NCBI RefSeq assembly: GCF_000657795.2
Contig: NZ_JHEP02000002.1
Coordinates: 62,001-126,000, forward strand
Direction: 5' to 3'
Length of the DNA stretch: 64,000 nucleotides
Source: Bordetella pseudohinzii
GTDB taxonomy: Bacteria; Pseudomonadota; Gammaproteobacteria; Burkholderiales; Burkholderiaceae_B
Part shown: positions 6,185-64,000 of the stretch, piece after piece
Layout: every line of letters starts with the position of its first letter
How positions within the stretch are numbered: position 1 is the stretch's first letter
Position numbers and translations under genes: made by a program
The notes under the pieces: generated by a model
Database searches by the model: none
What the model was told of the DNA's origin: nothing
What the model saw: the letters and a program-made list of their open reading frames with translations, nothing else

Positions 6185-7438
6185 ATGTTCACCTTGCTGT
6201 TCGTTGCCCTGCTGATTGCCGATACCGGCGTGCGCCTGTGGCTGGCCAGCCGCCAGATCCGCCACGTCGCCCAACACCGCGACATGGTGCCCGGCGAGTT
6301 TTCCGCCCGCATCGGCCTGACCAGCCACCAGCGCGCCGCGGACTATACCGTCGCCCGCGTGCGCCTGGGCATGTTCGAACGCCTCTACGACGCCATGATA
6401 CTGGTCGGCCTGACCTTGTTTGGCGGTTTGCAATGGCTGGATACCACCCTGGCCCAGCTGACCCAGGCGGATTTTCTCAGGCAGTTGCTGCTGCTGGTCT
6501 GCGTCGCCCTCCTGCTGGGGCTGGCCGGCCTGCCTTTCACGCTATGGCGCCAATTCAAGCTGGAGAGCCGTTTCGGCTTCAACCGCATGACGCCGGGGCT
6601 TTTCGTTTCGGACACGCTCAAGGGCCTGGCGCTGGCCTTCTGTCTCGGCCTGCCCCTGGCCTCGGCCATCCTGTGGCTCATGGCGAGCGCCGGTTCGCTG
6701 TGGTGGCTGTGGGCCTGGGGCCTGTGGACGGCTTTCAACCTGCTGCTCATTTTCATCGCGCCGACCTATATCGCGCCGCTGTTCAATAAGTTCACGCCCC
6801 TGGACGACCCCGAACTCACCGCCCGCATCCGCGGCCTGGCCCAGCGCTGCGGCTTCACGCTCAAGGGCTTGTTCGTGATGGACGGCTCCAAGCGCTCGGC
6901 CCACGGCAACGCCTATTTCACGGGCTTTGGCAAAAGCCGGCGCATCGTCTTTTTCGACACCCTGCTGTCGCGCCTGAACGCCGACGAAATCGAAGCCGTG
7001 CTGGCCCATGAACTGGGACATTTCAAGCGCCACCACATCCTCAAGCGCATCGGCCTGAGCCTGTTCATGGCCCTGGTCTTCTTCGCCGCGCTGGGATGGC
7101 TGGCGCAACAGCCCTGGTTCTACGTGGGCCTGGGCGTGCTGCCGCAGCTGGGCGGGCGCAATGACGCCATGGCGCTCATCCTCTTTTTCCTGGTCATCCC
7201 GGTGTTCACCTTCATGTTCACGCCACTGGCCAGTTGGTATTCGCGCCGCGACGAATTCGAGGCCGACCGCTACGCGGCCGCGCAAAGCTCCTCGGGCAAC
7301 CTGGTCTCCGCGCTGGTCAAGCTCTACGACGACAACGCCGCCACGCTGACGCCGGACCCCGTGCACTCGGCCTTCTACGACAGCCATCCGCCGGCTGCCG
7401 TGCGCATCCGTCACCTCCTGACGGGCGCCGCCGCATGA
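6185..7438 (+). CDS. M48-family membrane zinc metalloprotease (Ste24/CAAX-protease-like)
   Basis: A 417-residue integral membrane protease. The zinc-binding HELGH is at residues 275-279 and the third-ligand motif EFEAD at 357-361. Several hydrophobic helices lie in the N-terminal half (for example [18 protein letters not shown]) and further ones follow HELGH. The architecture fits the Ste24/CAAX protease 1 branch of M48 rather than the shorter HtpX. Its stop overlaps the rsgA start (ATGA), so the two are co-translated. Substrates are unknown; membrane protein quality control is an inference. Confidence 0.88.
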
Positions 7439-8337
7439 GCGCCGATAACGAAGGCCGCATCATCGCCGCCCATGGGCGCCACTACAGTGTGGAGCTGGCC
7501 GACGGCAGCCTGCGCAAATGCTTTCCCCGCGGCAAGAAAACCGGGCCGGCCGTCGGCGACTGGGTACGCATCACGCCGCAAGGCGCCGATGAAGGCGCCA
7601 TCGACGCCGTGCTGCCGCGGCGCAACCTGCTGTTCCGCTCCGACGAAATGCGGTCCAAGCAATTCGCCGCCAACGTGGACCAGCTGCTCATCGTGGTGGC
7701 CGTCGAACCCACCTTTTCCGAAGACCTGCTCGGACGCGCCCTGACCGGCGCCTGGAGCGCGGGCATCGAACCGCTCATCATCCTGAACAAGATCGACATC
7801 GCCGCCGGCCTGCCCGCGGCGCGCGAACGCCTCGCCCCGGTCCGCGCGCTGGGCGTGCCGGTCATCGAACTGAGCGCCCCGGACGCCCAGGCCGTGCATC
7901 GCGAACTGGCGCCGCGGCTGGCCGGCCGCGTCAACCTGCTGCTGGGGCAAAGCGGCATGGGCAAGTCCACCCTGCTCAACACCCTGGTGCCGGACGCCCA
8001 GGCGGCCACGCGCGAGCACTCCACCGCGCTGGACATGGGGCGCCACACCACCACCAGCACCCGCCTCTACCACCTGCCGGCGCCGGGCGGCGATCTGATC
8101 GACTCCCCGGGCTTCCAGGCCTTCGGCCTGCAGCACCTGAGCGGCGAAGACATCCTGCGCGGCTTTCCCGAATTCAAACCCTATATCGAGCACTGCCGCT
8201 TCTACAACTGCACCCACCGGCATGAGCCGGGTTGCGGCGTGGTGGCCGCGCTGAAACAGGGATTGATCGATCCCGGCCGCTATGCGCTGTACGAACGCAT
8301 CCTGGCCGAAACCGAGGCCGCGCGCCAGCGCTACTAG
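7435..8337 (+). CDS. rsgA: Small ribosomal subunit biogenesis GTPase RsgA
   Basis: A 300-residue circularly permuted GTPase that acts late in 30S subunit maturation. An N-terminal OB-like domain is followed by a G domain in permuted order: G4 LNKIDI comes before the P-loop GQSGMGKST, and DSPGF follows. The C-terminal zinc knuckle uses HCRFYNCTH and GCGV. The start at 7,435 is chosen for the ATGA overlap with the protease gene and the family-typical N-terminus. Confidence 0.96.
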
Positions 8338-8341
8338 GGCC

Positions 8342-8361
8342 TGCCCGCGGTGACGCGGGCA
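8342..8361. other. Perfect inverted repeat after rsgA
   Basis: TGCCCGCG and CGCGGGCA flank a GTGA loop immediately after the rsgA stop. No T-run follows, so it is at best a weak or factor-dependent terminator, or an mRNA-stabilising hairpin. Confidence 0.45.
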
Positions 8362-8467
8362 CCGGGCGGCCGGCCTCGGACAGACCCTGGCGCGTAGCGG
8401 GCCCTCGCCCCTCACAGCGGCCCGCGAGCACGATACACTGCGGCTTTCAGGGACATGGGAAGCAGAC

Positions 8468-9265
8468 ATGCCGCGTTTCGCCGCGAATCTTTCAACGCTC
8501 TATCAAGACATTGAAATGCTGGACCGTTGCGCCGCCGCCGCGCGCGATGGGTTCAGGGGGGTCGAAATGCAATTCCCCTACAGCCACCCTACCGCGCAAT
8601 GGCGCGAGCGGCTGCAACGCCACGATCTCGAACTGATACTGATCAACGCCCCGGCCGGCGATGCCCGCCAGGGCGAGCGCGGCCTGGCCTGCCTGCCCGG
8701 CCGCCAGGAGGATTTCCGCGCCGGGCTGGAGCAGGCCCTGGAATACGCCGTCTCGCTGATGTGCCCGCGCGTGCACGTCATGGCGGGCTGCCCGGCCAGC
8801 GGCAGCGAGCCGCAGGCCCTGCGCGAGACGTATATCGACAACCTGGCCTATGCCGCCCGCCTGGCCGCCGCCGTCGACGTCGAAATCCTCATCGAACCCA
8901 TCAATCCGCGCGACATGCCGGGCTATTACCTCAATCACCAGGCCGAGGCCCATGCGGTGGCCCAGGCCACGGGCGCGGCCAATGTCAAAGTGCAGATGGA
9001 TCTCTATCACTGCCAGATCGTCGAGGGCGACGTCAGCATGCGCCTGCGCCACTACATCCCGCAGGGCCGCGTGGGCCACGTCCAGATCGCCGGCGTGCCC
9101 CTGCGCCAGGAACCCGATCAGGGCGAACTCAACTACCCCTATCTGTTCCAGCTGCTCGATGAGCTGGGCTACGCCGGCTGGGTAGGCTGCGAGTACCGTC
9201 CGGCGGGCGACACCCGCGCCGGCCTGGGCTGGCTGCACGCCGCGCGGCGCGCCTCCACCCACTGA
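8468..9265 (+). CDS. hyi: Hydroxypyruvate isomerase family protein (Hyi/OtnI-like TIM barrel)
   Basis: A 265-residue AP-endonuclease-2-type TIM barrel of the Hyi family, which isomerises hydroxypyruvate and tartronate semialdehyde or related 2-oxo-tetronates. Family signatures are MPRFAANLSTLY at the N-terminus, GVEMQFPY, LIEPINPRDMPGY with a metal-binding Glu, MDLYHCQI, and the second metal Glu in GCEYRP. A purine-rich GGAAG precedes the ATG. No glyoxylate carboligase or tartronate semialdehyde reductase gene is nearby, so Hyi versus OtnI specificity cannot be settled. Confidence 0.85.
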   Translation: MPRFAANLSTLYQDIEMLDRCAAAARDGFRGVEMQFPYSHPTAQWRERLQRHDLELILINAPAGDARQGERGLACLPGRQEDFRAGLEQALEYAVSLMCPRVHVMAGCPASGSEPQALRETYIDNLAYAARLAAAVDVEILIEPINPRDMPGYYLNHQAEAHAVAQATGAANVKVQMDLYHCQIVEGDVSMRLRHYIPQGRVGHVQIAGVPLRQEPDQGELNYPYLFQLLDELGYAGWVGCEYRPAGDTRAGLGWLHAARRASTH

Positions 9266-9278
9266 GCAAGCCGCGTGT

Positions 9279-9992
9279 TCAGCGCGGCGCGAGGCTCTTG
9301 TAGAGGTTGCGCAGCATCCCGGCGGTCGCGCCCCAGATAAAACGCTCCCCCCAGGGGATGGCGTAATAGCGGCGCACCCGGCCGTCGGGCAATCGCGCCT
9401 CGTACAGCCGGTGGTTGGATGGGTCCATCAGGAAGTCCAGCGGCACCTCGAAAATATCCGCCACCTCGAAGACATCGGGCGCCGGCGCAAAATCCGGACG
9501 CACCAGCGAGACCACCGGCGTGATGGAAAAACCCGTCGACGTCAGGTACTCGGGCATGCTGTTGAGCACTTCCACCCGGTCTTGCGGCAGGCCGGTTTCT
9601 TCCTGGGCCTCGCGCAGGGCGGTATCCACCGGCGTCGGGTCGACCAACTCGACCCGCCCTCCCGGGAAGCTGATCTGGCCGGCATGGTCGTGCAAATGGG
9701 CGGCGCGCTGCGTCAGCATCACACGGACCCCTTCGGGGCGCATCACCATGGGAATCAGCACGGCGGCCAGCACCGGCGGGCCTTCACGGCCCGGATAGCG
9801 GTCTTTTTCCATGCCCAGGGGATCCAGCGTCCACTCGCGGGCGGGCCGCAGCGCGCCGCGCAGGGCATCGGGCGTCAGCAGCTCCGGATTGACCCGCAGC
9901 AGCCCGCCATCGGCGACCTGCCAGGGCTGATCCTTGGGATCGAAATTGGGCCGGATGATGGACCGGCGGCGTGCGGGCGTTGAGTCAGACAT
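9279..9992 (-). CDS. CoA pyrophosphatase-type Nudix hydrolase (NudL/YeaB-like)
   Basis: A 237-residue Nudix protein. FPGGRVELVD leads into the Nudix box ending REAQEETGL, and the family-specific LTQRAAHLHDHAGQISFPGG precedes it; this is typical of the UPF0035 CoA-diphosphatase group that cleaves CoA to phosphopantetheine and 3',5'-ADP. The ATG at 9,992 gives MSDSTPARR and normal length; upstream in-frame starts give an unsupported extension. It is downstream of rplS on the same strand but separated by a terminator. Confidence 0.85.
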   Translation of the reverse strand: MSDSTPARRRSIIRPNFDPKDQPWQVADGGLLRVNPELLTPDALRGALRPAREWTLDPLGMEKDRYPGREGPPVLAAVLIPMVMRPEGVRVMLTQRAAHLHDHAGQISFPGGRVELVDPTPVDTALREAQEETGLPQDRVEVLNSMPEYLTSTGFSITPVVSLVRPDFAPAPDVFEVADIFEVPLDFLMDPSNHRLYEARLPDGRVRRYYAIPWGERFIWGATAGMLRNLYKSLAPR

Positions 9993-10130
9993 GAGCCAGG
10001 AAACAAGAAAAGTCCCCCCGGCCGCGCACGTCATGCGTGCTTGCTGCTCCCGAAGGAGCGCTGCCTGCCTTGGGGCGGTCCGGCGGCGCAAAGGCCGCGC
10101 TGCGCGCGCTACTGCGAAAAACCAAAAAAA

Positions 10131-10155
10131 AGCACCCTTGCAGGTGCCTTTTTAA
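10131..10155 (-). terminator. Rho-independent terminator of rplS (works in both directions)
   Basis: GCACC and GGTGC stems enclose a short loop. On the minus strand the hairpin is followed by a run of eight T (10,131-10,124), and on the plus strand by TTTTT. It closes rplS transcription before the Nudix gene. Confidence 0.8.
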
Positions 10156-10232
10156 CTCGGAATGCCGTCCAGGCAACGCCGGCAAGGATGCCGGCGCGGG
10201 CTGGACGGTCCGGACAGCTTTCAAGCCGGGGA

Positions 10233-10613
10233 TCAACCCTGGGCGGCTTGCTTGCTGACCAGCTTTTCCTTGATGCGAGCCGACTTGCCCGAGCGGTTGC
10301 GCAGGTAGTACAGCTTGGCACGGCGCACGTCGCCGCGGCGCTTGACTTCGATGCTGGCGATCTGCGGCGAGTACAGCTGGAACGTGCGTTCCACGGCTTC
10401 ACCCGAGGAGATCTTGCGGACGATGAAGGAGGAATTCAGGCCACGGTTGCGCTTGGCAATGACCACGCCCTCGAAGGCCTGGACACGCTTGCGGGTGCCT
10501 TCGACCACGTTCACGCTCACGATCACGGTGTCGCCAGGGGCGAACTCCGTCACGGGCTTGTCGCCGGTCAGGCGCTTGATTTCTTCCTGTTCAAGGATAG
10601 CGATAAGGTTCAT
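10233..10613 (-). CDS. rplS: 50S ribosomal protein L19
   Basis: A 126-residue L19 with the typical [12 protein letters not shown] start, the [11 protein letters not shown] beta-strand region and the basic C-terminal segment [22 protein letters not shown]19 sits at the 30S-50S interface. In many proteobacteria it is the last gene of rpsP-rimM-trmD-rplS, but here the upstream 320 bases hold none of those genes and a transporter gene then runs the other way, so it appears to be transcribed alone. Confidence 0.97.
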
Positions 10614-10933
10614 AAGAACTCCAGAGTCATCTTGTCTTTGCAGGCGTTTTTTGCCGGGATAAATTTCAATGCGCCTGGCCTGGCCTGGTTGGCGTGCATC
10701 GGGGGTCAGTCATAGACCTGAAGTAAACCCTTCAGGCCATGAACCTTCGGCCATGGACCTCACCCGCCCGCACCCAGCCCGCCTTGCCCCGCGCATATTT
10801 GGTATGCCGCAAGCAGAGGATGAGTTGGCAAACCAGCAATTCTACCTCAGTGCCCTTTTTTTAACCAGTCTGGCGCTATGGGCTCCGCCCCCGATTCAGG
10901 TACGCTTGCGCCTTTCCCAGGCGCTGCGACTCC
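10614..10933. other. Divergent rplS / EamA-transporter intergenic region
   Basis: This 320-base stretch must hold the promoters of rplS (minus) and the EamA gene (plus). I see no convincing -35/-10 pair. It contains a perfect 7-base inverted repeat CCTGAAG...CTTCAGG (10,717-10,736) without a T-run, and no coding sequence resembling TrmD, RimM or RpsP. The repeat may be an operator or a leader hairpin of the rplS mRNA. Confidence 0.5.
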
Positions 10934-41669: not shown

Positions 41670-42792
41670 AGCGGCGCTCGAATTCCTTGAGGTAATCGAC
41701 CAGGGCCTGCACGCCGGCCAGCGGCATGGCGTTGTAGATGGAGGCGCGCATGCCGCCCACGCTCTTGTGCCCCTTGAGCGCCAGCAGGCCGGCGGCCTCG
41801 GCGCCTTGCAGGAAGGCATCATTGAGCGATTCGTCGCGCAGCACGAAGGGCACGTTCATGCGCGAACGCACCGAGGGCTCGACCGGATTGCGGTAAAAGC
41901 CGCTGGCGTCCAGATAGCCGTAGAGCAGGTCGGCCTTGGCCTTGTTGGCCGCCTCCAGGGCCTGCACGCCGCCCTGGGCCTTGACCCATTTGTAGACCAG
42001 GCCGGCGACGTAGATCGCGAAGGTCGGCGGGGTGTTGTAGCGCGAATGCTCGGCGGCCACGTTGGCGTAGTCAAAGGCCGACGGACAGATGGACAGCGCC
42101 TTGCCCAGCAGGTCGCGGCGCGCGATGACCACGGTCACGCCGGCCGGGCCGGCGTTCTTCTGCGCGCCGGCGAACAGCAGGCCGGTGCGGGTGGCGTCCA
42201 GCGGACGCGACAGGAAATGCGAAGACGCATCCACCACCAGGGGCACGTCGGGCGCGCCCAGCGCGGCCAGATCGGGCCAGTCGGTGAATTCCACGCCCCC
42301 TATGGTTTCGTTGCTGCACAGATGCAGATAGGCCGCCTCGGGACGGACCTGCCAGCTCGCCGCCGGCGGCACCCAGGTAAAGGGGCGCTGCTCGCGGCCG
42401 CCGATCTCGGCGGCCTGCGCGCTGGAGGCGGCGATGCGGGCGTCGCCATAGCGGCCGGCTTCTTTGTGCGAGCGCGTGGACCAATGCCCGGTCACCACGA
42501 AATCAGCCGCCGGCACGCCGCGCCGGCCGATCAGGTTCATGGGAACGATGGCGTTCTCGCCCAGCCCGCCGCCCTGCATGAACATGACGGCATAGTCGGC
42601 CGGCAGGTTCATGAGTTCGCGCAGGTCGGCTTCGGCCTCGTCGCAGATCTGCACGAACTGGCGGCCGCGGTGACTCATTTCCATCACCGACATGCCGCTG
42701 CCTTGCCAATCCAGCATCTCGGCCGCGGCCTGCTGCAACACCACCTCGGGCAGGACCGAAGGTCCGGCCGAGAAATTCCAGGGGCGCGCCAT
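41662..42792 (-). CDS. serC: Phosphoserine aminotransferase
   Basis: A 376-residue PLP aminotransferase for serine and pyridoxal synthesis. [18 protein letters not shown] is the hallmark N-terminus, and [13 protein letters not shown] holds the PLP lysine. The ATG at 42,792 is seven bases after the gyrA stop. It is the first biosynthetic gene of the serC-pheA-hisC-tyrA-aroA-cmk-rpsA group. Confidence 0.96.
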
Positions 42793-42799
42793 CTCTTGC

Positions 42800-45439
<2,640 letters not shown>

Positions 45440-45830
45440 ATATATAGCGACAGAATCGTGTGTAAGGAGGAACCCGGGCCGGGTAAACGGGAAATTCTAT
45501 CATTCGATTGCAGCCGCCTCCCCCCAGGCCCGGCGGGGCGCGTTCGCCGACAAGTGTGCTACCGGCCCCGGCCGCCGCCCAAGCCCTGTTGCCAAAAACC
45601 AACATGAATTCTGCATCGGGTGCCCAAATGGTCATATCCTGAGTCAATGGACTGGCTTAAAGGGAGCCAAAGGTCCCCAAATGCCTTAAGATTGTTTCCA
45701 GCACGCAGGAGACCCAGTGGCGGCCCTTTGAACCTGTTCGGAGCGTTGCTATACTGGCCCCGTTTTCCTGATATGCGGCGGGGGTTCGCTGCGAGTCACT
45801 TATCCAGCTTCAAGCTCAACGAGGAGAAAC
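45440..45830. other. Divergent gyrA / ompA regulatory region
   Basis: This 391-base spacer holds the promoters of gyrA (minus) and ompA (plus) and no convincing gene. The ompA promoter is clear (separate entry). For gyrA I see only a TAGAAT-like -10 near 45,500 without a good -35, plus an AT stretch ATATAT directly before the ATG. Short open frames through here are not supported by codon pattern. Confidence 0.6.
45728..45755 (+). promoter_or_regulatory. Sigma70-type promoter of ompA
   Basis: TTGAAC (45,728-45,733) and TATACT (45,750-45,755) are separated by 16 bases. The start would be near 45,762, leaving a leader of about 70 bases that ends in GAGGAG before the ompA ATG. Confidence 0.75.
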
Positions 45831-48042: not shown

Positions 48043-48396
48043 ATGAAGGTGCTTGCGATATTCGGCACGCGGCCGGAAGCCATCAAGAGGACGCCTCCGC
48101 TGCGGGCATGGAAAGCTCAATCCGGCCTGGAATGCATCGCCGCGCTCATCGGCCAGCATTGGCAGATGCTAGACCAGGTGCTGCATCTGCTCGGCATCCA
48201 GGCCGACCATGATCTGGATGTCATGGTCCCCAAGCAGACCCTCGACGGTCTGTATGCGCGCGTGCTCACCCGTGTGGACGCCCTGCTCGAAGGCGAGGCG
48301 CCCGACTGTGTCCTGGTGCGCGGCGACACCACCACCGCCCATGGGGCGGCCCTGATGGGCCGCACGGTGCAGGAATTCAATCCCATTCGATCGTGA
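48043..48396 (+). pseudogene. wecB: Truncated UDP-N-acetylglucosamine 2-epimerase (wecB/nfrC) fragment
   Basis: Only 117 codons of an enzyme that is normally about 370-380 residues. The N-terminal MKVLAIFGTRPEAIK, the QHWQMLDQVLHLLGI segment and VRGDTTTAHGAAL match WecB, which turns UDP-GlcNAc into UDP-ManNAc. Then the frame ends at EFNPIRS. The second Rossmann domain and the active-site residues beyond residue 110 are gone, so it cannot be active alone. Changes such as QHWQ for the usual QHRE and KRTP for KMAP suggest drift. A GGGAGG site precedes it. It ends seven bases before the BcsB-like gene and heads an Nfr-like locus. In E. coli nfrC is wecB, so its position is meaningful. Confidence 0.88.
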
Positions 48397-48403
48397 GTCC
48401 AAC

Positions 48404-50590
48404 ATGCCTGTCTCTTGCACTCGCCTGCCGAACCTGACACGACTCGTCCTGCTGACCGCGTTGGCCCTGCCCGCGGCCGCGCCCGCCTCGCCCGCCGGCG
48501 ACGCGCTGCGCGAGCTGGCGCGCGACACCTGGGTCCAGCGCAGTCTTTCGCTGGAAGACCTGGGCCTCAATGATCCGGCGGTGCTGCGCATGAGCGAGAA
48601 CCAGCAGGACTACTACTTGCCGGTTCCCAAAGGCCTGCGTCTGGCCGATGCCACGCTCACGGTCGACGGACGGTATATCCGAGGCGAGGAAAGCCCCCCG
48701 ACGCTGGGCCTGAGCATAGACGGCCGTCCGGTCATGGCCCAGCGCATGCAGGAGCGCGAGGGCTCAATCACCCGCCCTTATGCGCTTGACGCGCATGCGC
48801 GCGACTCCGGCTTTGTGCATCTGCGGGTCGATTGGGGCTCGCCCATCGGCCGCCGCATCTGCGATCCGGACCGGCCCACGGCCAATGTGCTGACGCTGGC
48901 GCCCACCACCCGCCTGGCCTACCGCTTTGCCTCGAGCGATCTCACCACGCTGGACGATGCCTGGAGCACCCTGCCCGGCAAGCCGGTGTTGCTGATCGCC
49001 AGCGGCAAACTGGAGCAGACCAGCTACGACGCGGCCTGGCGCGCCGGCGTGGCGCTTGGCCGGGCCGGCAAGCGCGCGCGGGTCTCCAGCCTGCCCGCCG
49101 TGGGCGATACGGTTGCGTTGGACGGGCTTGCCATTCCAGCGGGCTTGGCGGACGTCAAGGGCTTCGCGGCCTTGCGTGGCAAGGACGAACACCGTCTGGC
49201 CGACGCGGCCGAGCTCGGCGCCTGGATAGTCGCCGGCGGCGTGCAGGCCGATCTGGTCATTGCCGATGCCGCGTTCTCGGCGCAGCTCAAGGCCGCGCTG
49301 GACGCCCTGCAGGCGCAATTGCAGAACGACAGCGACGCCGTCGCCGGCTTGAAAGCCTGGCGCGACCAGCATGCCGGCCTGGCCGACGCCCCGCCGGCCA
49401 GCCAGCAGGTCAAGCTCGGCCTGCTAGGCAAACAGACCGTGATCGCCATCGCCCCGGACGCCGGGGCCCAGGCCGCTGGCCTCTTCGACAGCCAGTGGCG
49501 CCGCGTGCTGGCCGGTCCGCAAGCCAGCTTGCACAGCGCGGGCCAGAATCCCATGAGCGGCGCCGTGCGCCTGTCCGACCTGGGAGGCTCCACCCAGGCT
49601 TTCGATGTCATCACGCGCGGCGACTGGACCATCAACTTTCCGCTGAGTTCGGTCTCGGCCGACGGCCGCATCCCGGGAGAACTGGTGCTCGATGTGGCGG
49701 CCGCCCCCGGCGCCGCGGCATCGCCGCCGGTGGTCTCGGTCCTCTGGAACGGGGTGCTGCTGGACGCGCGCCGGCTGACCGATGCCGGCCAGCCCGCTCG
49801 GCTGACCTCTCGCGTCCCGGGCTATGCGCTGGGCGTGAACAATGTGCTGCGCGTGAGTTTCCAGCGCCAATCTGCCTCGCCGGACTGCGCCGAGACGCCG
49901 CAGGCCTATCCCGTCAATGTGCTGGCCAGCAGCCATCTGCGGCCGACGCCGGCCGAGCCCGACGGGACATTCGTGGGCCTGCTGCCCCTGCTGGCGGGCA
50001 GCCCGCAACTCATCCTGCCACCGGCATGGCTGGACAAACCGGCCGAGTCGCTGCCCCACGTCATCCCCATGGCCACGGCCAGCGCCCTGTCGCCGGCCCG
50101 CGCCGAGCTCGTGCTGGCGGACAAGGAGGCGCAGCCGACCAAGCCCTTCCTGGCCATGGGCGTGACCGTGGCCGGGGCCGCGCCGCTCATCGAGGTCGTC
50201 GAAGGCAAACGGCTGCGCGTGGGCGGCCGCGAGCGGCCCTGGCTGGATCTTGAAGGCCCCGAGCCGCTGAGCGCGGCCTCGGTCGTCAAGGCCGGCAAGC
50301 AATCCGGCATCGCCTGGTATGCGCTGGGCAAGACGCCGGTCACGCCGTCCGCCGCCTTTGTGCTCTCGCGCGGCGACGGCGTGGTCCTGGGCGCCAAGGG
50401 GCCGCTGGCCTGGGTCGATACGACCGATCCGGGCCTGAGCCGCCCGCCAGGCGCCGCGGGCGGGACATTTTATGAATGGCGCAACTACCTGTCCTGGGGA
50501 CTGCCGGCGCTAGGCATCGTGCTGGTGCTCGGGCTGCTGCTTGCCCTGGCCGTGCGCCGCGCCCGCAAGCGCCGCGAGAACAGCCATTGA
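48404..50590 (+). CDS. BcsB-like periplasmic polysaccharide synthase subunit
   Basis: A 728-residue envelope protein with a signal peptide (residues about 1-28, ending PAAAPAS), a large periplasmic region and one C-terminal membrane helix (about 698-718) followed by a basic tail. The alternating beta-sandwich segments with LRVDWGSPI, RVSFQRQSASPDC and the C-terminal anchor resemble BcsB, the cellulose synthase partner that guides the growing chain into the periplasm. No BcsA, BcsC, BcsZ or BcsD gene lies nearby; instead an NfrB-type synthase follows 38 bases on. It probably serves as co-polymerase for that synthase. BcsB membership is by layout and local similarity, so moderately sure. Confidence 0.72.
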   Translation: MPVSCTRLPNLTRLVLLTALALPAAAPASPAGDALRELARDTWVQRSLSLEDLGLNDPAVLRMSENQQDYYLPVPKGLRLADATLTVDGRYIRGEESPPTLGLSIDGRPVMAQRMQEREGSITRPYALDAHARDSGFVHLRVDWGSPIGRRICDPDRPTANVLTLAPTTRLAYRFASSDLTTLDDAWSTLPGKPVLLIASGKLEQTSYDAAWRAGVALGRAGKRARVSSLPAVGDTVALDGLAIPAGLADVKGFAALRGKDEHRLADAAELGAWIVAGGVQADLVIADAAFSAQLKAALDALQAQLQNDSDAVAGLKAWRDQHAGLADAPPASQQVKLGLLGKQTVIAIAPDAGAQAAGLFDSQWRRVLAGPQASLHSAGQNPMSGAVRLSDLGGSTQAFDVITRGDWTINFPLSSVSADGRIPGELVLDVAAAPGAAASPPVVSVLWNGVLLDARRLTDAGQPARLTSRVPGYALGVNNVLRVSFQRQSASPDCAETPQAYPVNVLASSHLRPTPAEPDGTFVGLLPLLAGSPQLILPPAWLDKPAESLPHVIPMATASALSPARAELVLADKEAQPTKPFLAMGVTVAGAAPLIEVVEGKRLRVGGRERPWLDLEGPEPLSAASVVKAGKQSGIAWYALGKTPVTPSAAFVLSRGDGVVLGAKGPLAWVDTTDPGLSRPPGAAGGTFYEWRNYLSWGLPALGIVLVLGLLLALAVRRARKRRENSH

Positions 50591-50628
50591 GAAGAGGCTT
50601 CGACTTCCCCTGACCCCAGGCTAGGCGC

Positions 50629-52314
50629 ATGTCTTCCCTCTTCTCTTCGCTCTATTGGCCCTATCTGGTCGCCGACTACTATCGCGGACTCGAACTCGTG
50701 ACCGCGATAGTCGCGGTGCTGATCATGCTCTCCAGCATCGATGACTTGTTCATCGACCTCTGGTACTGGACCCGCGAGCTATACCGCAAGCTTTTTATCA
50801 AACCCCTCTTCTCACCGCTGACCGAAGCGCAGTTGCTGGAGAAACCGGAGCAGCCGCTGGCCATCATGGTGCCGGCCTGGCTGGAGTACGACGTGATCGC
50901 CTCGATGCTGGAGACCATGGTCTCCACGCTGAACTACAAGAACTACATGATCTTCGCCGGCACCTACCAGAACGACGCCCGCACCATCGAAGAAGTCGAG
51001 CGCATGCGGCGACGCTACCGGCAACTCATCCGCGTGGAGGTGCCGCACGACGGGCCAACCTGCAAGGCCGATTGCCTGAACTGGATCGTGCAAGCCATCT
51101 TCGCGCAAAACGCCAAGCAGCCCGAACCCTTCGCCGGCGTTATCCTGCACGACAGCGAGGACGTGCTGCACCCGCTGGAGATGAAGTACTTCAACTATCT
51201 GCTGCCGCGCATCGACTTCATCCAATTGCCGGTGACGTCGCTGGAGCGCGAGTGGTATGAACTCGTGGCCGGCACCTATATGGACGAATTCGCCGAATGG
51301 CACACCAAGGATCTGGTGGTGCGCGAAAGCCTGTCGCGCATGGTGCCCTCGGCCGGCGTGGGCACCTGCTTTTCCCGCAAGGCCCTGGAAGAGCTGGCCG
51401 CCGAAACCCACAACCAGCCCTTCAATACGGACACGCTGACAGAGGACTACGACATCGGCGCCCGCCTGGCGCAACGCGGCATGAAACAGATCTTCGGCAA
51501 GTTTCCGGTGCAATACGTCACGCGGCGCAGGCCCTGGTTCGGCCTGGGCCATGAGCGCGTGGGTTCGGTCCGGATGCCCATGGCGGTGCGGGAGTATTTT
51601 CCGGACACGTTCAGGACGGCGTATCGCCAGAAAGCGCGCTGGACGCTGGGCATCGGCCTTCAGGGCTGGCAGCAGGTCGGCTGGACAGGCAGTCTGGCCA
51701 ACCGCTATCTGCTGTTCCGCGACCGCAAAGGCCTGTTCACCTCCTTTATCGCCATCATCGCCTACGTCCTGCTGGCGCAGTTCCTGATCTTCATCGGGCT
51801 GAACAAGCTGGGTTGGTGGACGACGCTGTATCCCTCGCTATTCCGCCCGGGCAGCTGGTATACGGCGCTGCTGTGGGCCAATGGCTTTCTGCTGGCCGCG
51901 CGGCTGGGCCAGCGGGCGCTATTCGTGGGCCGGTACTATGGCTGGGAACATGCCCTGCTCTCGGCGCCGCGCATGGTCATCGGCAACTTCATCAATGCCA
52001 TGGCGGCCGCCCGCGCCTGGAAGCTCTTCCTGGGCCACCTGCTCTTCGGCAAGCGCCTGGTCTGGGACAAGACCATGCATGACTTCCCCTCGACCGAACA
52101 GCTGACGCAGCAACGCCAGCGCCTGGGCGATCTCCTGCTGTCCTGGCGCGCCATCGACCAGCACACCCTGGCCCGGGCGCTGGAAAAACAGAAGAAGGAA
52201 AAAAAGCCCTTGGGACAGATCCTCACCGAGGAAGGCTGGCTGGACCGCCCCACGCTGGAAGAAGCCATTTCCTTTCAGCAGTCCGCATCGGGCGAAGCCG
52301 AGGGCAAATCATGA
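50629..52314 (+). CDS. nfrB: NfrB-like family 2 glycosyltransferase with C-terminal MshEN c-di-GMP-binding tail
   Basis: A 561-residue inner-membrane synthase. One hydrophobic segment is near residues 22-45 and further helices lie at about 362-385 and 403-425. The cytoplasmic GT2 core has DSED (175-178), TEDYDIG (271-277) and QKARW (334-338), the D, DxD, TED and QxxRW pattern of processive synthases. Residues about 496-550 contain two repeats of the RLGxxL...L...AL..Q type: RLGDLLLSWRAIDQHTL and PLGQILTEEGWLDRPTL. This is the MshEN pattern that binds c-di-GMP, also found at the C-terminus of E. coli NfrB. It overlaps the nfrA-like gene by ATGA. It should polymerise a sugar across the membrane when c-di-GMP is high. 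Confidence 0.87.
   Translation: MSSLFSSLYWPYLVADYYRGLELVTAIVAVLIMLSSIDDLFIDLWYWTRELYRKLFIKPLFSPLTEAQLLEKPEQPLAIMVPAWLEYDVIASMLETMVSTLNYKNYMIFAGTYQNDARTIEEVERMRRRYRQLIRVEVPHDGPTCKADCLNWIVQAIFAQNAKQPEPFAGVILHDSEDVLHPLEMKYFNYLLPRIDFIQLPVTSLEREWYELVAGTYMDEFAEWHTKDLVVRESLSRMVPSAGVGTCFSRKALEELAAETHNQPFNTDTLTEDYDIGARLAQRGMKQIFGKFPVQYVTRRRPWFGLGHERVGSVRMPMAVREYFPDTFRTAYRQKARWTLGIGLQGWQQVGWTGSLANRYLLFRDRKGLFTSFIAIIAYVLLAQFLIFIGLNKLGWWTTLYPSLFRPGSWYTALLWANGFLLAARLGQRALFVGRYYGWEHALLSAPRMVIGNFINAMAAARAWKLFLGHLLFGKRLVWDKTMHDFPSTEQLTQQRQRLGDLLLSWRAIDQHTLARALEKQKKEKKPLGQILTEEGWLDRPTLEEAISFQQSASGEAEGKS
52120..52275 (+). other. MshEN c-di-GMP-binding module within nfrB
   Basis: Two tandem motifs of about 24 residues encoded at the 3' end of the glycosyltransferase gene, starting at R498 and P528. 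Consensus positions (R/P)LG, hydrophobic pairs, L and the closing Q are kept in both; Trp replaces the usual Gly in the first. In MshE and NfrB such motifs wrap around c-di-GMP. Binding here is inferred from the pattern. Confidence 0.75.
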
Positions 52315-54539
52315 TCCCGCGCGCGCTGATCCTGGCCCTCGCCCTGTGCGGCGGCCTGGCGCTGGCGCAGGAAGCGCCGTTGACGGGAGCCGCCTGGCAG
52401 TATGCCGACCAGGCCTATAAAAGCTATGACGCCGGCAACTACGCCGATGCGCTCACGCAGGTCAACCATGCGCTGAACGCCCGGCCCGACGTGGCGCGCC
52501 TGCAATTGCTCAAGGTCTATACGCTGCAAAAACTGGGCCGCGACCAGGAGGCGCTGGCGGCCGCGCAAGCCGCGGTCGAGCAGGGGCTGGACGACCCCGG
52601 CCTGAAGGCGGCCATCGCCAACCTGAAACCCTCCCCTCCGAAACCCGCCAGCGCGCCCGTGGCCCGCCCCGCGCCCCGCCGCGCCAGTGCCTATGAACGC
52701 GGCTATCCCATCGCCACCAAGGCCTATGCCGACTACAAGCGCGGCGACATGCCCGCGGCCGAGAAAGGCGCTGAACGCGCCTTTCGCACCGATCCCCGGC
52801 AGGGCAATTGGGCCCTGCTATGGCTGGATGCGCTCGTGGCCCAGAACAAGCTGGCCCAGGCCGAAAGCGCCGCAGGCACGGCTCTCGCGCTGGGCGCGCC
52901 CAACCAGGCCGAACTGAAGGCCCGGCGCGACGCCCTGCGGCGCCAGCTCGCGCCGCCGCCTGCGCCGCCCGCCCCGGCCGTCGACGACAGCGCGGCGGCC
53001 TTGGCCTACGCGGCCTATGCGCGCCAGGATTACCCGGAAGCCATCCGCCAGGCCAGACTGGCCCTGGATGCCGATCCGGACAATCCCGAGCGCCAGCGCC
53101 TCTACACCACCGCCCTGGCCTCGGGCGACCGCCAACAGGCCGCCGAGGCCGAGATTCGGCTGAACGATGCCCTGGCCAAGACCCCTGGCGAGGCCACGCT
53201 GCTGCTGCAACGCGCCTATCTGCGCCAGCGCCTGGGCGAGCCCGAACTGGCGCTGGCCGATTTCCGCGCCGCGCAGGCCACCGGCCAGGCGCCGCCCAGC
53301 GTCACCCTGGACCAGGCCTATGCGCTATCGGCGCTGGGCCGCAATCCCGAGGCGGTGGAACAACTCAAGCAGGGCATCGACATGGCCGATGCCGGACAGC
53401 TGCCACTGGACCCGCAACAGCGCTACAACACGCGCAGCGCCATCGCCAATTTGTCGCGCGAATGGGGCGCCTCGCTGTCGGCGGGCTATCGCGGCGCGCG
53501 CCCGGCCAATAGCAGCCTGGGCGGCGCGGCCATCAGCACCCCGGGCGATGCCGTTTTCAGCACCGCCGAGGTCTTCTGGCGCCCGCCACAGACCAACAAC
53601 CGCTACGGCATGCTCGAAGCCTATGCGCGGCTGTCCAATACCCTATACGACGAGGGCAGCACCTTTGAATCCGTGAAATTCGTCGATCCCTGCACCGGCG
53701 AAGTCACCGACGATTCGCGCGCGCGCAGCGAGCGCGTACAGAACACGCGCACCGTCACCGGTTGGCCCAGCACCATAGGGGCGCTCGGCCTGCGCTATCT
53801 GCTGGCCGACACCGGCCTGACCTTCGGCCTGGAGCGGCGGTTTTTCCTGGGCTCGGCCACCCGCCAGGGCACGCTCTACCCTCAGTCGTCGCTGGTGCAA
53901 TGCGGCATCCAGCGCGGCTTTGACCAGCCGCGCGGCATCAACACCGTGACCCGCTACCGGCTCGACAGCGACGCCGGCGGCTGGATGGGTTATATGACCT
54001 ATGGCTACTACCATGGCCGCGACCTGCGCACCGACGTGCCAAGCTGGCTCACCGTGGAAGGCTATTCGCAGCTGGGCTATACCTGGGACAGCAACGACGC
54101 CCGCTTTGACGTCAAGAGCGTGGACCGCAAGGGCAACACCACCGGCACGGTGGCCAGCTCCGATGGCAAGCTCACGCGCGACCAGGCCTTCGCCACCGCC
54201 GAATTGCGCGTCGGGCGCAGTTTCCGCCTGGACCAGATCAGCAACAACCTGGTGATCTTTCCCCATGTGGTGGTGGGCGCGGACTGGCTATGGCAGAAAA
54301 ACCGCGCAAGCGGCGTGAGCTACCCGCCCGCCACCATCGACTATGCGCTTTCGGACAACGGCCGCAGCTGGTCGCTCGGCGTTGGCCCGGGCTTGAATCT
54401 TCGCTATTGGTTTCGCGAAGACCACTACAACGCGCCGCGCTCGTATTTCGACTGGTCGGTGCAATACCGCACGCCGCTGGGCGGCGGCGCGACCGAGCGC
54501 GCCAAGGGCCTGTTCATGAGCATGACGCTCTACTACTGA
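52311..54539 (+). CDS. nfrA: NfrA-like TPR and outer-membrane export protein
   Basis: A 742-residue protein with a signal peptide (to about LALAQ, residue 20) and TPR-like helical repeats up to about residue 390 (for example YKSYDAGNYADALTQVNHAL). The C-terminal half (about 400-742) resembles the NfrA_C domain, with alternating aromatic strands and a last residue pattern SMTLYY typical of outer-membrane beta-barrels. E. coli NfrA is the outer-membrane part of the N4 phage receptor and exports the NfrB-made polymer. It is translationally coupled to the synthase. The 3' end is four bases from a convergent DUF4434-type gene. Confidence 0.82.
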   Translation: MIPRALILALALCGGLALAQEAPLTGAAWQYADQAYKSYDAGNYADALTQVNHALNARPDVARLQLLKVYTLQKLGRDQEALAAAQAAVEQGLDDPGLKAAIANLKPSPPKPASAPVARPAPRRASAYERGYPIATKAYADYKRGDMPAAEKGAERAFRTDPRQGNWALLWLDALVAQNKLAQAESAAGTALALGAPNQAELKARRDALRRQLAPPPAPPAPAVDDSAAALAYAAYARQDYPEAIRQARLALDADPDNPERQRLYTTALASGDRQQAAEAEIRLNDALAKTPGEATLLLQRAYLRQRLGEPELALADFRAAQATGQAPPSVTLDQAYALSALGRNPEAVEQLKQGIDMADAGQLPLDPQQRYNTRSAIANLSREWGASLSAGYRGARPANSSLGGAAISTPGDAVFSTAEVFWRPPQTNNRYGMLEAYARLSNTLYDEGSTFESVKFVDPCTGEVTDDSRARSERVQNTRTVTGWPSTIGALGLRYLLADTGLTFGLERRFFLGSATRQGTLYPQSSLVQCGIQRGFDQPRGINTVTRYRLDSDAGGWMGYMTYGYYHGRDLRTDVPSWLTVEGYSQLGYTWDSNDARFDVKSVDRKGNTTGTVASSDGKLTRDQAFATAELRVGRSFRLDQISNNLVIFPHVVVGADWLWQKNRASGVSYPPATIDYALSDNGRSWSLGVGPGLNLRYWFREDHYNAPRSYFDWSVQYRTPLGGGATERAKGLFMSMTLYY

Positions 54540-54543
54540 GGGC

Positions 54544-55545
54544 TCAGAACCGCGCCTGGCGCCAGGCGCGCCGCAAGGCCCGGGCCCGCTCCTCGGCGCC
54601 TGTGAGCCAGGGCTCGACCGCGAAGGCCAGCGTATGCGCCGCGCCGGTCTGCCCGGCCCATTCCAGTTGACGGCGCACACGCTCCCAATCGGCCGGCTGG
54701 GCCCGGAACTCCGAACCGTCATTCTTGGCCGTGGGCAGCTGCTCGAAGAGCTCGACAATCACATCGAAGACGGCCTCGCGCTGGCGCAAGCCGGCCAGCA
54801 GCGGCGCTATCCTGGCGAGATTCTGCATCCCGGCCACCCCCACGCCATCCTGCACCATGGGCCGCAGCGCCGCTCGCGACAAAAGCGTCTCCCATACGGC
54901 CAGCAAGGTCGTGGCGCTAGGCAGCTGGCTGAAATAGGTCGAAATCGCCGGCACCTGGCCGGTGACGCCCTGCGCCGCCTCCGAGATCGCCCCCAGCCAG
55001 TCGGCCAGCATGGCGCGGCGCGCCGGATCGGCCCAGGAATACTGCTCGATCTCGTAAGGGATGTACCAGCCGCCGAAGCGGCGGCGCAAAGGCCAGGGCG
55101 CGCTGTTCAGATAGCCGATGGCCGCCTCCCGGCTGCGCTGGAAAAACGCCGCCAGCGCGGCAGGATCGGGGGTCTTGATGGCCTCCCACCAGCCATGATC
55201 GAAGGGCAGGCCCACGCGCACATTCAGGCCGCGCGCCGACGCGGTATCGAAGATAGTCTCCATCACCGCGTCGGGCACCTGCCAGGCGGGCGCCGTGCCG
55301 CCGGACACCCCCGTCCATTGCAGCACCACCTCGCGGCAGCCGAGCGCGCGCATCTCGCCCATCAGGCGGCGCCACCGCGTGCGCGACCACGCCAGATGGC
55401 TGTGCCAGATCTGCACGAAACTGCCATCGAGCGCGGGCGGACGCGGCGCGCATCCGGCCAAGGCCAGCGCCAGCGGCGCGGCCAGCCCCCAACGCAGCAT
55501 GCGCCGGCGCAAGGGAGAATCGGCTACTATCGCATCCGGCTTCAT
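54544..55545 (-). CDS. DUF4434-type lipoprotein of the Nfr-like locus
   Basis: A 333-residue protein. The N-terminus RRRMLRWGLAAPLALALAGC carries a lipobox (LAGC) and a twin-arginine-like stretch. FVQIWHSHLAWSRTRWRRLM, LPFDHGWWEAI, WYIPYEIEQYSW and the STYFSQLPS region look like a TIM-barrel glycoside-hydrolase-like DUF4434 domain. From memory, E. coli YbcH, encoded beside nfrAB, is of this type. A role in trimming or modifying the polymer is inference. It runs convergently to nfrA, unlike a simple operon member. Confidence 0.7.
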   Translation of the reverse strand: MKPDAIVADSPLRRRMLRWGLAAPLALALAGCAPRPPALDGSFVQIWHSHLAWSRTRWRRLMGEMRALGCREVVLQWTGVSGGTAPAWQVPDAVMETIFDTASARGLNVRVGLPFDHGWWEAIKTPDPAALAAFFQRSREAAIGYLNSAPWPLRRRFGGWYIPYEIEQYSWADPARRAMLADWLGAISEAAQGVTGQVPAISTYFSQLPSATTLLAVWETLLSRAALRPMVQDGVGVAGMQNLARIAPLLAGLRQREAVFDVIVELFEQLPTAKNDGSEFRAQPADWERVRRQLEWAGQTGAAHTLAFAVEPWLTGAEERARALRRAWRQARF

Positions 55546-63487: not shown

Positions 63488-64000
63488 CTATTTGGCGCCG
63501 GCAATGATGTCCCGCGCATCGCGCATGCCCTGCGCCGTCATGACGCGCACGCGGTCGCGCCCCATCTCCTTGGCGTCATAGAGCGCCTTGTCGGCGCCCT
63601 TGATGACCGCGTCCAGGTTGGAGCCGTGGTCCGGATAGCGCGCCACGCCGATGGACAGCGTGATGGGGCCGCATTCCTCGACTCGCGCCTGCGCCACCGT
63701 CTGGCGCAGGCGTTCGGCGAAGGCCGCCGCGCCGGCCAGCGAGGTCTGCGGCAACAGCACCAGGAATTCGTCGCCGCCCAGCCGGGCCACGACATCGCCG
63801 CTGCGCACCAAGTCCTCCATCATGTGGCTCACCTGCGTAATCGCCAGGTCGCCGATGTGATGGCCATGCTCGTCGTTGACACGCTTGAAGTAATCGATGT
63901 CAAACGCGATGACGGCCACCGGCGCGCCCTGGGCCTTCAAGCCTTCCAGGGCGACGGCGAGGCCGCGGCGGTTCAGCGTCCCGGTCAGGGGATCGCTGGA
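63488..64000 (-). CDS. GGDEF-domain protein, C-terminal part (cut by window edge)
   Basis: The C-terminal 170 residues of a diguanylate cyclase; the gene runs off the right end. DPLTGTLNRR opens the GGDEF domain, FDIDYFKRVNDEHGHHIGD follows, and the active site reads RLGGDEFLVLLPQ, so the catalytic GGDEF is intact. It should make c-di-GMP from GTP. An RxxD inhibitory site is not obvious in the visible part. The sensory N-terminus is not visible. A c-di-GMP-dependent synthase is encoded about 12 kb upstream, but a link is only possible. Confidence 0.9.
   Translation of the reverse strand, partial: SSDPLTGTLNRRGLAVALEGLKAQGAPVAVIAFDIDYFKRVNDEHGHHIGDLAITQVSHMMEDLVRSGDVVARLGGDEFLVLLPQTSLAGAAAFAERLRQTVAQARVEECGPITLSIGVARYPDHGSNLDAVIKGADKALYDAKEMGRDRVRVMTAQGMRDARDIIAGAK

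Follow-up and report, generated by a model that had tools for sequence, protein, structure and literature searches.

A 64,000-nucleotide stretch of the Bordetella pseudohinzii genome (positions 62,001 to 126,000 of contig NZ_JHEP02000002.1, hereafter the window) carries a locus related to the Nfr exopolysaccharide systems. The initial annotation had placed a wecB fragment, a BcsB-like protein, an NfrB-type glycosyltransferase of family 2 (GT2), an NfrA-type protein and a DUF4434 protein side by side, and all five were recovered. A wecB remnant of 117 codons (48043..48396, + strand) is followed on the same strand by genes for a BcsB-like periplasmic co-subunit (48404..50590, +, 728 aa), an NfrB-type processive GT2 synthase (50629..52314, +, 561 aa) and an NfrA-type outer-membrane exporter with a tetratricopeptide repeat (TPR) region and a C-terminal barrel (52311..54539, +, 742 aa). 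A 4-nt overlap links the end of nfrB to the beginning of nfrA. Convergent with nfrA lies the gene of a YbcH-related DUF4434 protein, a putative lipoprotein (54544..55545, −, 333 aa). The bcsB, nfrB, nfrA and DUF4434 frames are all open in the window. Family profiles placed the GT2, the NfrA C-terminus and the DUF4434 protein in the expected families, while the BcsB-like protein was recognized by its fold and through its relatives. The source genome (4.54 Mb in 48 contigs) is the single genome of the species that was compared.

The wecB remnant consists of approximately the first 100 codons of a UDP-N-acetylglucosamine (UDP-GlcNAc) 2-epimerase gene, fused in frame to the final twelve or so codons of the same gene, with about two thirds of the epimerase missing. 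It matches TIGR00236 with 98.7 bits over model positions 1-105 of 366, below the cut-off of 210 bits, and PF02350 with 50.8 bits over positions 2-88 of 347, above the cut-off of 30.6. The tail LMGRTVQEFNP corresponds to the WecB C-terminus of relatives (LLGRAVQEFDP), and we conclude from this match that the middle of the gene was lost in frame. Judged from the alignment, the fragment is thus an internal in-frame deletion and not a simple 5' stub, with a scar at approximately 48337..48363 (+) by visual comparison with the intact wecB of two Bordetella relatives (L028, L029).

In order to compare rates of change, substitutions unique to the window were counted against those unique to each of two Bordetella relatives, with Achromobacter mucicolens as outgroup. 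The remnant displayed 23 window-unique changes in 104 codons, versus 5 (p 0.0007) and 6 (p 0.0016) in the two relatives. Differences were not significant for nfrB (37 versus 43, and 32 versus 40), for the C-terminal part of nfrA (39 versus 26, and 33 versus 29) or for the DUF4434 gene (30 versus 25, and 32 versus 22). According to these counts, the wecB remnant is decaying while the synthase gene is not. A function of the remnant as a working mini-epimerase was rejected, with so large a part of the enzyme gone and the rest accelerated.

The NfrB-type GT2 scored 932.9 bits against PRK15489 (cut-off 537; NCBIfam profiles) and shows 42% identity with E. coli NfrB (BLAST, 546 columns). The DxD, TED and QxxRW motifs are present, and D175, D273 (TED) and W338 (QKARW) align with D169, D267 and W330 of the E. 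coli protein. An MshE-type domain predicted to bind cyclic di-GMP (c-di-GMP) is located at the C-terminus (residues 498-550; 52120..52278, +; NF053729, 52.8 bits, cut-off 38), where L499, G500, L528 and G529 are retained from E. coli L490, G491, L518 and G519. Mutants of D169, D267, W330, L490, G491 and G519 have been reported to stop or reduce N4 infection in E. coli (PMC8669469; PMC8669472), and all six residues are kept in the window. Identity of the window NfrB to its counterparts is 78-82% in ten Bordetella/Achromobacter-type loci (L028-L036, L038), all with an intact local wecB, and 60-74% in more distant loci. Taken by its profile scores, the protein is an NfrB-type synthase and not an NfrB equivalog. 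The locus had been described initially as an Nfr-like, c-di-GMP-controlled exopolysaccharide locus; its Nfr type, the BcsB-like subunit, the c-di-GMP domain and the Bordetella-type genome are borne out, whereas the control itself would follow by analogy. A second, weak alignment of the window MshE-type domain fell on residues 663-715 of E. coli NfrB, within its additional C-terminal part (E 0.007), a sign that another, degenerate copy may lie there.

For the BcsB-like protein, searches with the window sequence alone were largely negative. It had no Pfam match, NCBIfam gave only a weak MamN match, a PDB phmmer search returned one chance match, and BLAST against E. coli BcsB found only short chance stretches. 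A profile built from 49 aligned BcsB-like proteins (the window protein and 48 relatives) likewise yielded only seven chance-level matches in the PDB. PF03170 was matched at E <= 0.01 by 33 of the 49 aligned proteins (best 1.1e-9), the window protein not being one of the 33. An AlphaFold2 model computed from the alignment (mean predicted local distance difference test score 82.8) retrieved cellulose synthase entries in all of the first 22 Foldseek rows (best E 7.9e-24). In VIA-align, 523 of the 728 residues aligned with E. coli BcsB (Z 15.8, root-mean-square deviation (rmsd) 6.0), whereas the best unrelated single-domain row reached Z ~10. Visual inspection also suggests an N-terminal signal-like segment, and a C-terminal helix spans residues 688-727. 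On the strength of the modeled fold and of PF03170 in its relatives, we classify the 728-aa protein as a divergent BcsB.

The NfrA-type protein matched NfrA_C (PF13283) with 91.2 bits (cut-off 25), covering profile positions 78-172 of 173 only. Its TPR region is shorter than in both Bordetella relatives; across 70 loci, the distance from the nfrB stop to the nfrA stop, a rough proxy of NfrA length, ranged from 413 to 1217 codons. The DUF4434 protein scored 183.3 bits against PF14488 (cut-off 30) and 87.7 bits against YbcH PRK09936, under the cut-off of 344; its alignment with E. coli YbcH spans 227 columns at 26% identity. Its LAGC sequence was read by eye as lipobox-like.

The neighborhood is conserved well beyond this genome. 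NfrA_C was found in 20 of 200 genomes of the family, including the window genome. Among 17 of the other 19 family loci, 14 carry wecB, the BcsB-like gene, nfrB and nfrA, with a full-length local WecB of 383-408 aa in every case, and three have NfrB with no BcsB-like match. Within the genus, NfrB was detected in three of 15 genomes, again counting the window genome (two of the 15 are less than 80% complete). Named genomes were also scanned with the BcsB-like alignment as seed, a design that is silent on the share of NfrB loci lacking a BcsB-like gene. This yielded 71 loci, distributed over Achromobacter, Bordetella, Pandoraea, Pseudomonas, Acidovorax relatives, Paraburkholderia, Trinickia, Xanthomonas and others. 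NfrB was present in 71/71, NfrA in 70/71 (the miss being a short contig) and WecB in 66/71. The order wecB-bcsB-nfrB-nfrA recurs in 66 of the 71, which is far beyond chance and shows the conserved co-occurrence asked for in the initial annotation. The BcsB-type Nfr machine is therefore a coherent and widely distributed branch.

The window locus differs from its nearest relatives downstream of nfrA. In the two Bordetella relatives, seven genes follow nfrA (L028 10113-17511), namely two AlgX-like genes, an MBOAT, a carrier protein, a ligase resembling DltA and nonribosomal peptide synthetases (NRPS), AlgF and an acyl-CoA dehydrogenase. The same seven-gene module is found in L029-L031, L033-L036 and L038; survey flanks were 10 kb, and a DUF4434 gene lying past a module was often out of view, its position beyond the module being visible in L059 and L060. 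Within the same 10 kb, a carrier match occurs in 36 and a first AlgX match in 53 of the 71 named loci. None of the seven genes lies between nfrA and DUF4434 in the window, an arrangement without module and with nfrA facing DUF4434 that is shared by 7/71 loci (L067, L081, L087, L099, L103, L108, L112). The module mixes alginate-type genes with a carrier, a ligase and a dehydrogenase, and the activated acyl group may not be acetyl. Its ligase is nearest to DltA/NRPS adenylation domains, below cut-off. A product with a pyrrole-type acyl group was considered and found unsupported, as the dehydrogenase reached 215 of 650 bits for a prolyl-carrier dehydrogenase and matched other families better. In the parts available, the 2021 papers on nfr loci mention acetyltransferase-type genes only (PMC8669469; PMC8669472).

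Relocation of the module within the window genome was also considered and, judged from the best match, discarded. A DNA search returned 13 matches, the best being a DltA-like ligase on C45 that appears to belong to a separate Dlt-type locus, and the second-best an acyl-CoA-dehydrogenase-like stretch on C48. The C45 ligase is 52.8% identical to the module ligase at the protein level and falls short of the DltA cut-off (381.7 versus 559.85 bits). It is part of a Dlt-like set of carrier, MBOAT and DltA-like ligase (L058 ~6798-10880), and no AlgX or AlgF match above 60 bits was found within the 19.5 kb examined around it.

The genome encodes two further full-length epimerases, both above the TIGR00236 cut-off. 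The one on C44 (524.5 bits) adjoins WecC, the UDP-ManNAc (UDP-N-acetylmannosamine) dehydrogenase (706.3 bits, cut-off 459). Next to the one on C34 (324.8 bits) are a 417-aa protein without NCBIfam match at 1e-30 and an aminotransferase-like gene that stays under the PseC cut-off (257 versus 423.5 bits), a neighborhood that we take to resemble the Bordetella wlb lipopolysaccharide (LPS) genes. Bordetella genomosp. 1 and 5 have a single PF02350 match each, namely their intact local wecB. We extended this comparison to the window genome and 70 of the 71 surveyed ones (L100 was dropped, lying at a contig edge). Another full epimerase was present in all nine genomes with an absent, deleted or frame-broken local wecB, compared with 34 of the 62 with an intact one (two-sided p 0.0095). 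When the other epimerase had to reach 350 bits and only absent or deleted cases were counted, the ratio was 5/5 versus 23/62 (p 0.010). This association supports, without proving, a link between losing the local wecB and having an epimerase elsewhere, and it agrees with the statement that nfr-linked wecB is present where the genome has no other wecB (Junkermeier and Hengge, 2021; PMC8669469).

Two groups of surveyed loci deserve mention with regard to wecB. In L112, L108, L064 and L082 (A. xylosoxidans B_1, A. anxifer, Pseudomonas helleri and A. marplatensis), the gene is interrupted by a stop or split in two frames, reflecting either sequencing error or further independent losses. In four BcsB-type nfr loci of three Pseudomonas and one Achromobacter (L065, L077, L081, L111), no adjacent wecB was found, L077 offering only 3.7 kb upstream; each of these four genomes has two full epimerases.

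Taken together, the locus probably encodes a working Nfr/BcsB system for an N-acetylmannosamine (ManNAc) polymer, whose own epimerase has decayed and which would obtain UDP-ManNAc from a distant WecB. The family matches, the kept residues, the BcsB fold, the conserved neighborhood, the open frames, the lack of excess change in nfrB and the epimerases elsewhere all point in this direction. By analogy with work in E. coli and Acinetobacter, we posit that the inner-membrane NfrB-type GT2 would polymerize a nucleotide sugar, most likely UDP-ManNAc, upon binding of c-di-GMP to its MshE-type domain. The BcsB-like subunit would take up the chain in the periplasm, NfrA would carry the polymer across the outer membrane, and the DUF4434 protein may play an accessory role. 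The sugar would be supplied in trans, from another contig, by the full-length C44 WecB next to WecC, and the existence of a further copy is probably the reason why the local gene could shrink to a remnant. The polymer would probably be undecorated, since the acylation module of the two Bordetella relatives is absent here. A source of c-di-GMP is plausible given 14 GGDEF matches across the genome. Two GGDEF matches lie ~8-10 kb downstream of the locus, at window positions 63551-63997 (−) and just past the window end (C12:127201-127650), and represent a possible local source.

Several observations weigh against this interpretation. The GT2 scored only 574.8 bits against the NfrB equivalog NF008411/PRK11234 (cut-off 1170; profile 3-537 of 723), it lacks ~190 C-terminal residues of E. 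coli NfrB, and L537 of the E. coli protein is replaced by isoleucine, a position examined there only in combination with L490 (PMC8669469; PMC8669472). The Foldseek superposition on BcsB is loose (TM ~0.50, rmsd 7.5, 10-11% identity). bcsB shows a slight excess of window-unique changes (92 versus 67, p 0.047; 85 versus 58, p 0.024), which could be early relaxation. The epimerase association depends on how it is counted: with any other full epimerase and absent or deleted wecB only, it is 5/5 versus 34/62 (p 0.07), and with the 350-bit threshold and the wider set 6/9 versus 23/62 (p 0.15). In three of the genomes with a frame-broken local wecB, the sole other epimerase scores low (303-309 bits). 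The thresholds were moreover picked after the data had been seen, and the genomes are related rather than independent. Finally, what is shown here is homology, residues, fold and evolutionary change, and the chemistry and regulation are carried over from the work in E. coli and Acinetobacter.

We consider it unlikely that the locus is instead dying. In this scenario, the wecB loss would have deprived the synthase of its substrate, the acylation module would have disappeared as well, and only the recency of the loss would explain why the remaining genes are still intact. Indeed, the window locus lacks two pieces that both Bordetella relatives have, the wecB middle and the module, few genomes of the genus have NfrB, bcsB is slightly accelerated and the NfrA TPR region is short. 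Yet the remnant has had time to gather its 23 lineage-specific changes, while nfrB shows no excess and the four large frames have stayed open. Substrate supply is also present elsewhere in the genome, and the module-free arrangement with nfrA opposite DUF4434 recurs among the surveyed genomes, as described above. Another scenario, which we regard as rather doubtful, is that the system now makes a changed, unmodified polymer, either of another sugar or of ManNAc drawn from a competing N-acetylmannosaminuronic acid (ManNAcA) pathway, with c-di-GMP control kept and the glycan seen by N4-like phages altered or evaded. We give little credence to a switch of substrate, in which the synthase would polymerize another nucleotide sugar such as UDP-GlcNAc and the distant WecB would be irrelevant. 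No dedicated epimerase is left at the locus and sugar specificity is not readable from sequence with the tools used, but NfrB remains close to that of the ten loci with an intact local wecB, without excess change, and the genomes without a local wecB all have another epimerase. That the deletion is an assembly or culture artefact, with the locus of the species intact, is hardly credible: only one genome of the species is at hand, and differences at 4 of 25 positions invariant in 57 intact homologues (8 of 106 in the paralogous C44 WecB, p 0.24) alone do not prove decay, but the accelerated change of the retained part (23 versus 5 and 6) is unlike a fresh artefact.

The inferred Nfr/BcsB machine, of a type named NGR in E. 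coli and PGR in Acinetobacter, resembles several known systems. It shares with the cellulose synthase BcsA-BcsB-BcsC the BcsB fold of the co-subunit, a processive GT2 and a TPR/barrel exporter. The c-di-GMP domain of BcsA is PilZ; the window GT2, in contrast, is NfrB-type, with only a weak 52-residue BLAST match to BcsA, and its c-di-GMP domain is MshE-type. With nfrBA-ybcH of E. coli, it has in common an NfrB-type GT2 with an MshEN domain, NfrA, a DUF4434/YbcH protein and, by our interpretation, a WecB encoded elsewhere (PMC8669469). It differs in that no BcsB-like gene is found among the six features around E. coli nfrB, and in the longer C-terminus of the E. coli synthase. Another described counterpart is the nfrA, nfrB and wecB cluster of A. 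xylosoxidans, which also includes O-acetyltransferases and a homologue of BcsB (Sellner et al., 2021; PMC8669472). It contains the same core set including the BcsB-like subunit, and the wecB-bcsB-nfrB-nfrA order recurs in Achromobacter in our survey, whereas the window has a deletion remnant of wecB and no acylation genes at the locus. The PGR locus of Acinetobacter baumannii, compared by description, is alike in its BcsB homologue PgrD, NfrB-like PgrC, WecB homologue PgrF and outer-membrane porin, and additionally has PgrA (diguanylate-cyclase-like, without a GGDEF motif) and PgrE (PgaB-like) (PMC12507263).

The suggestion that the added BcsB-like subunit marks a distinct, poorly described branch hence goes too far, as the BcsB, Nfr and WecB set is already in print for A. 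xylosoxidans (PMC8669472) and, as a phage receptor pathway defined by genetics, for Acinetobacter (PMC12507263); the window locus is a Bordetella-type copy of this branch. A literature search covering few subscription papers found no description of a Bordetella Nfr locus among the matches listed. The proposal that the locus holds the same functional set as in E. coli is correct for the conserved genes and fails for the local wecB, being a deletion remnant, and would hold only with UDP-ManNAc from elsewhere.

A role in phage adsorption may be conceivable by analogy. In Acinetobacter, strains became resistant to phage StAb3 through an insertion in the BcsB homologue, through its deletion or through a single-nucleotide polymorphism in the WecB homologue, and the deletion abolished phage adsorption (2025; PMC12507263). 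The function of the NGR/PGR polymers is called unclear or unexplored in the available parts of sources including PMC8669472, and several phages use the polymer. Homologues of N4 gp64 were detected in 17 Achromobacter-named phage records, with no Bordetella among the matches listed, and a literature search on Bordetella with N4-like phages or Schitoviridae found no Bordetella N4-like phage among the matches listed. For phiAxp-3, an N4-like phage of Achromobacter, use of LPS has been reported (PMC5862860), and a receptor role for N4-like phages, as proposed initially, is therefore unsafe to infer; phage DEV is reported to use O-antigen and LptD (PMC12892993). N4 gp64 homologues also occurred in 21 Campylobacter-named phage records (e.g., H24, H28, H29, H39), with the query span and identity seen in the rV5-like E. 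coli phages listed, and the host labels of these records may be wrong.

Around the locus, genes resembling gyrA, ompA, ubiG and gph lie upstream and a major facilitator superfamily-type gene downstream (names assigned by eye; the gph-like gene was run through a Pfam search as a HAD hydrolase). Very long open frames opposite likely real genes, such as 42692-45607 (+, 971 aa) opposite the gyrA-like gene, are probably a mechanical effect of the high G+C content.

The main interest of the window locus is its eroded wecB together with the predicted reliance on a shared UDP-ManNAc pool. Our survey extends the observation of Junkermeier and Hengge on nfr-linked wecB. A lineage without a dedicated epimerase, yet with the synthase, the BcsB partner and the exporter, represents a natural experiment that separates polymer export from sugar supply. 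We would predict that UDP-ManNAc is shared here with another pathway, as it is in E. coli.

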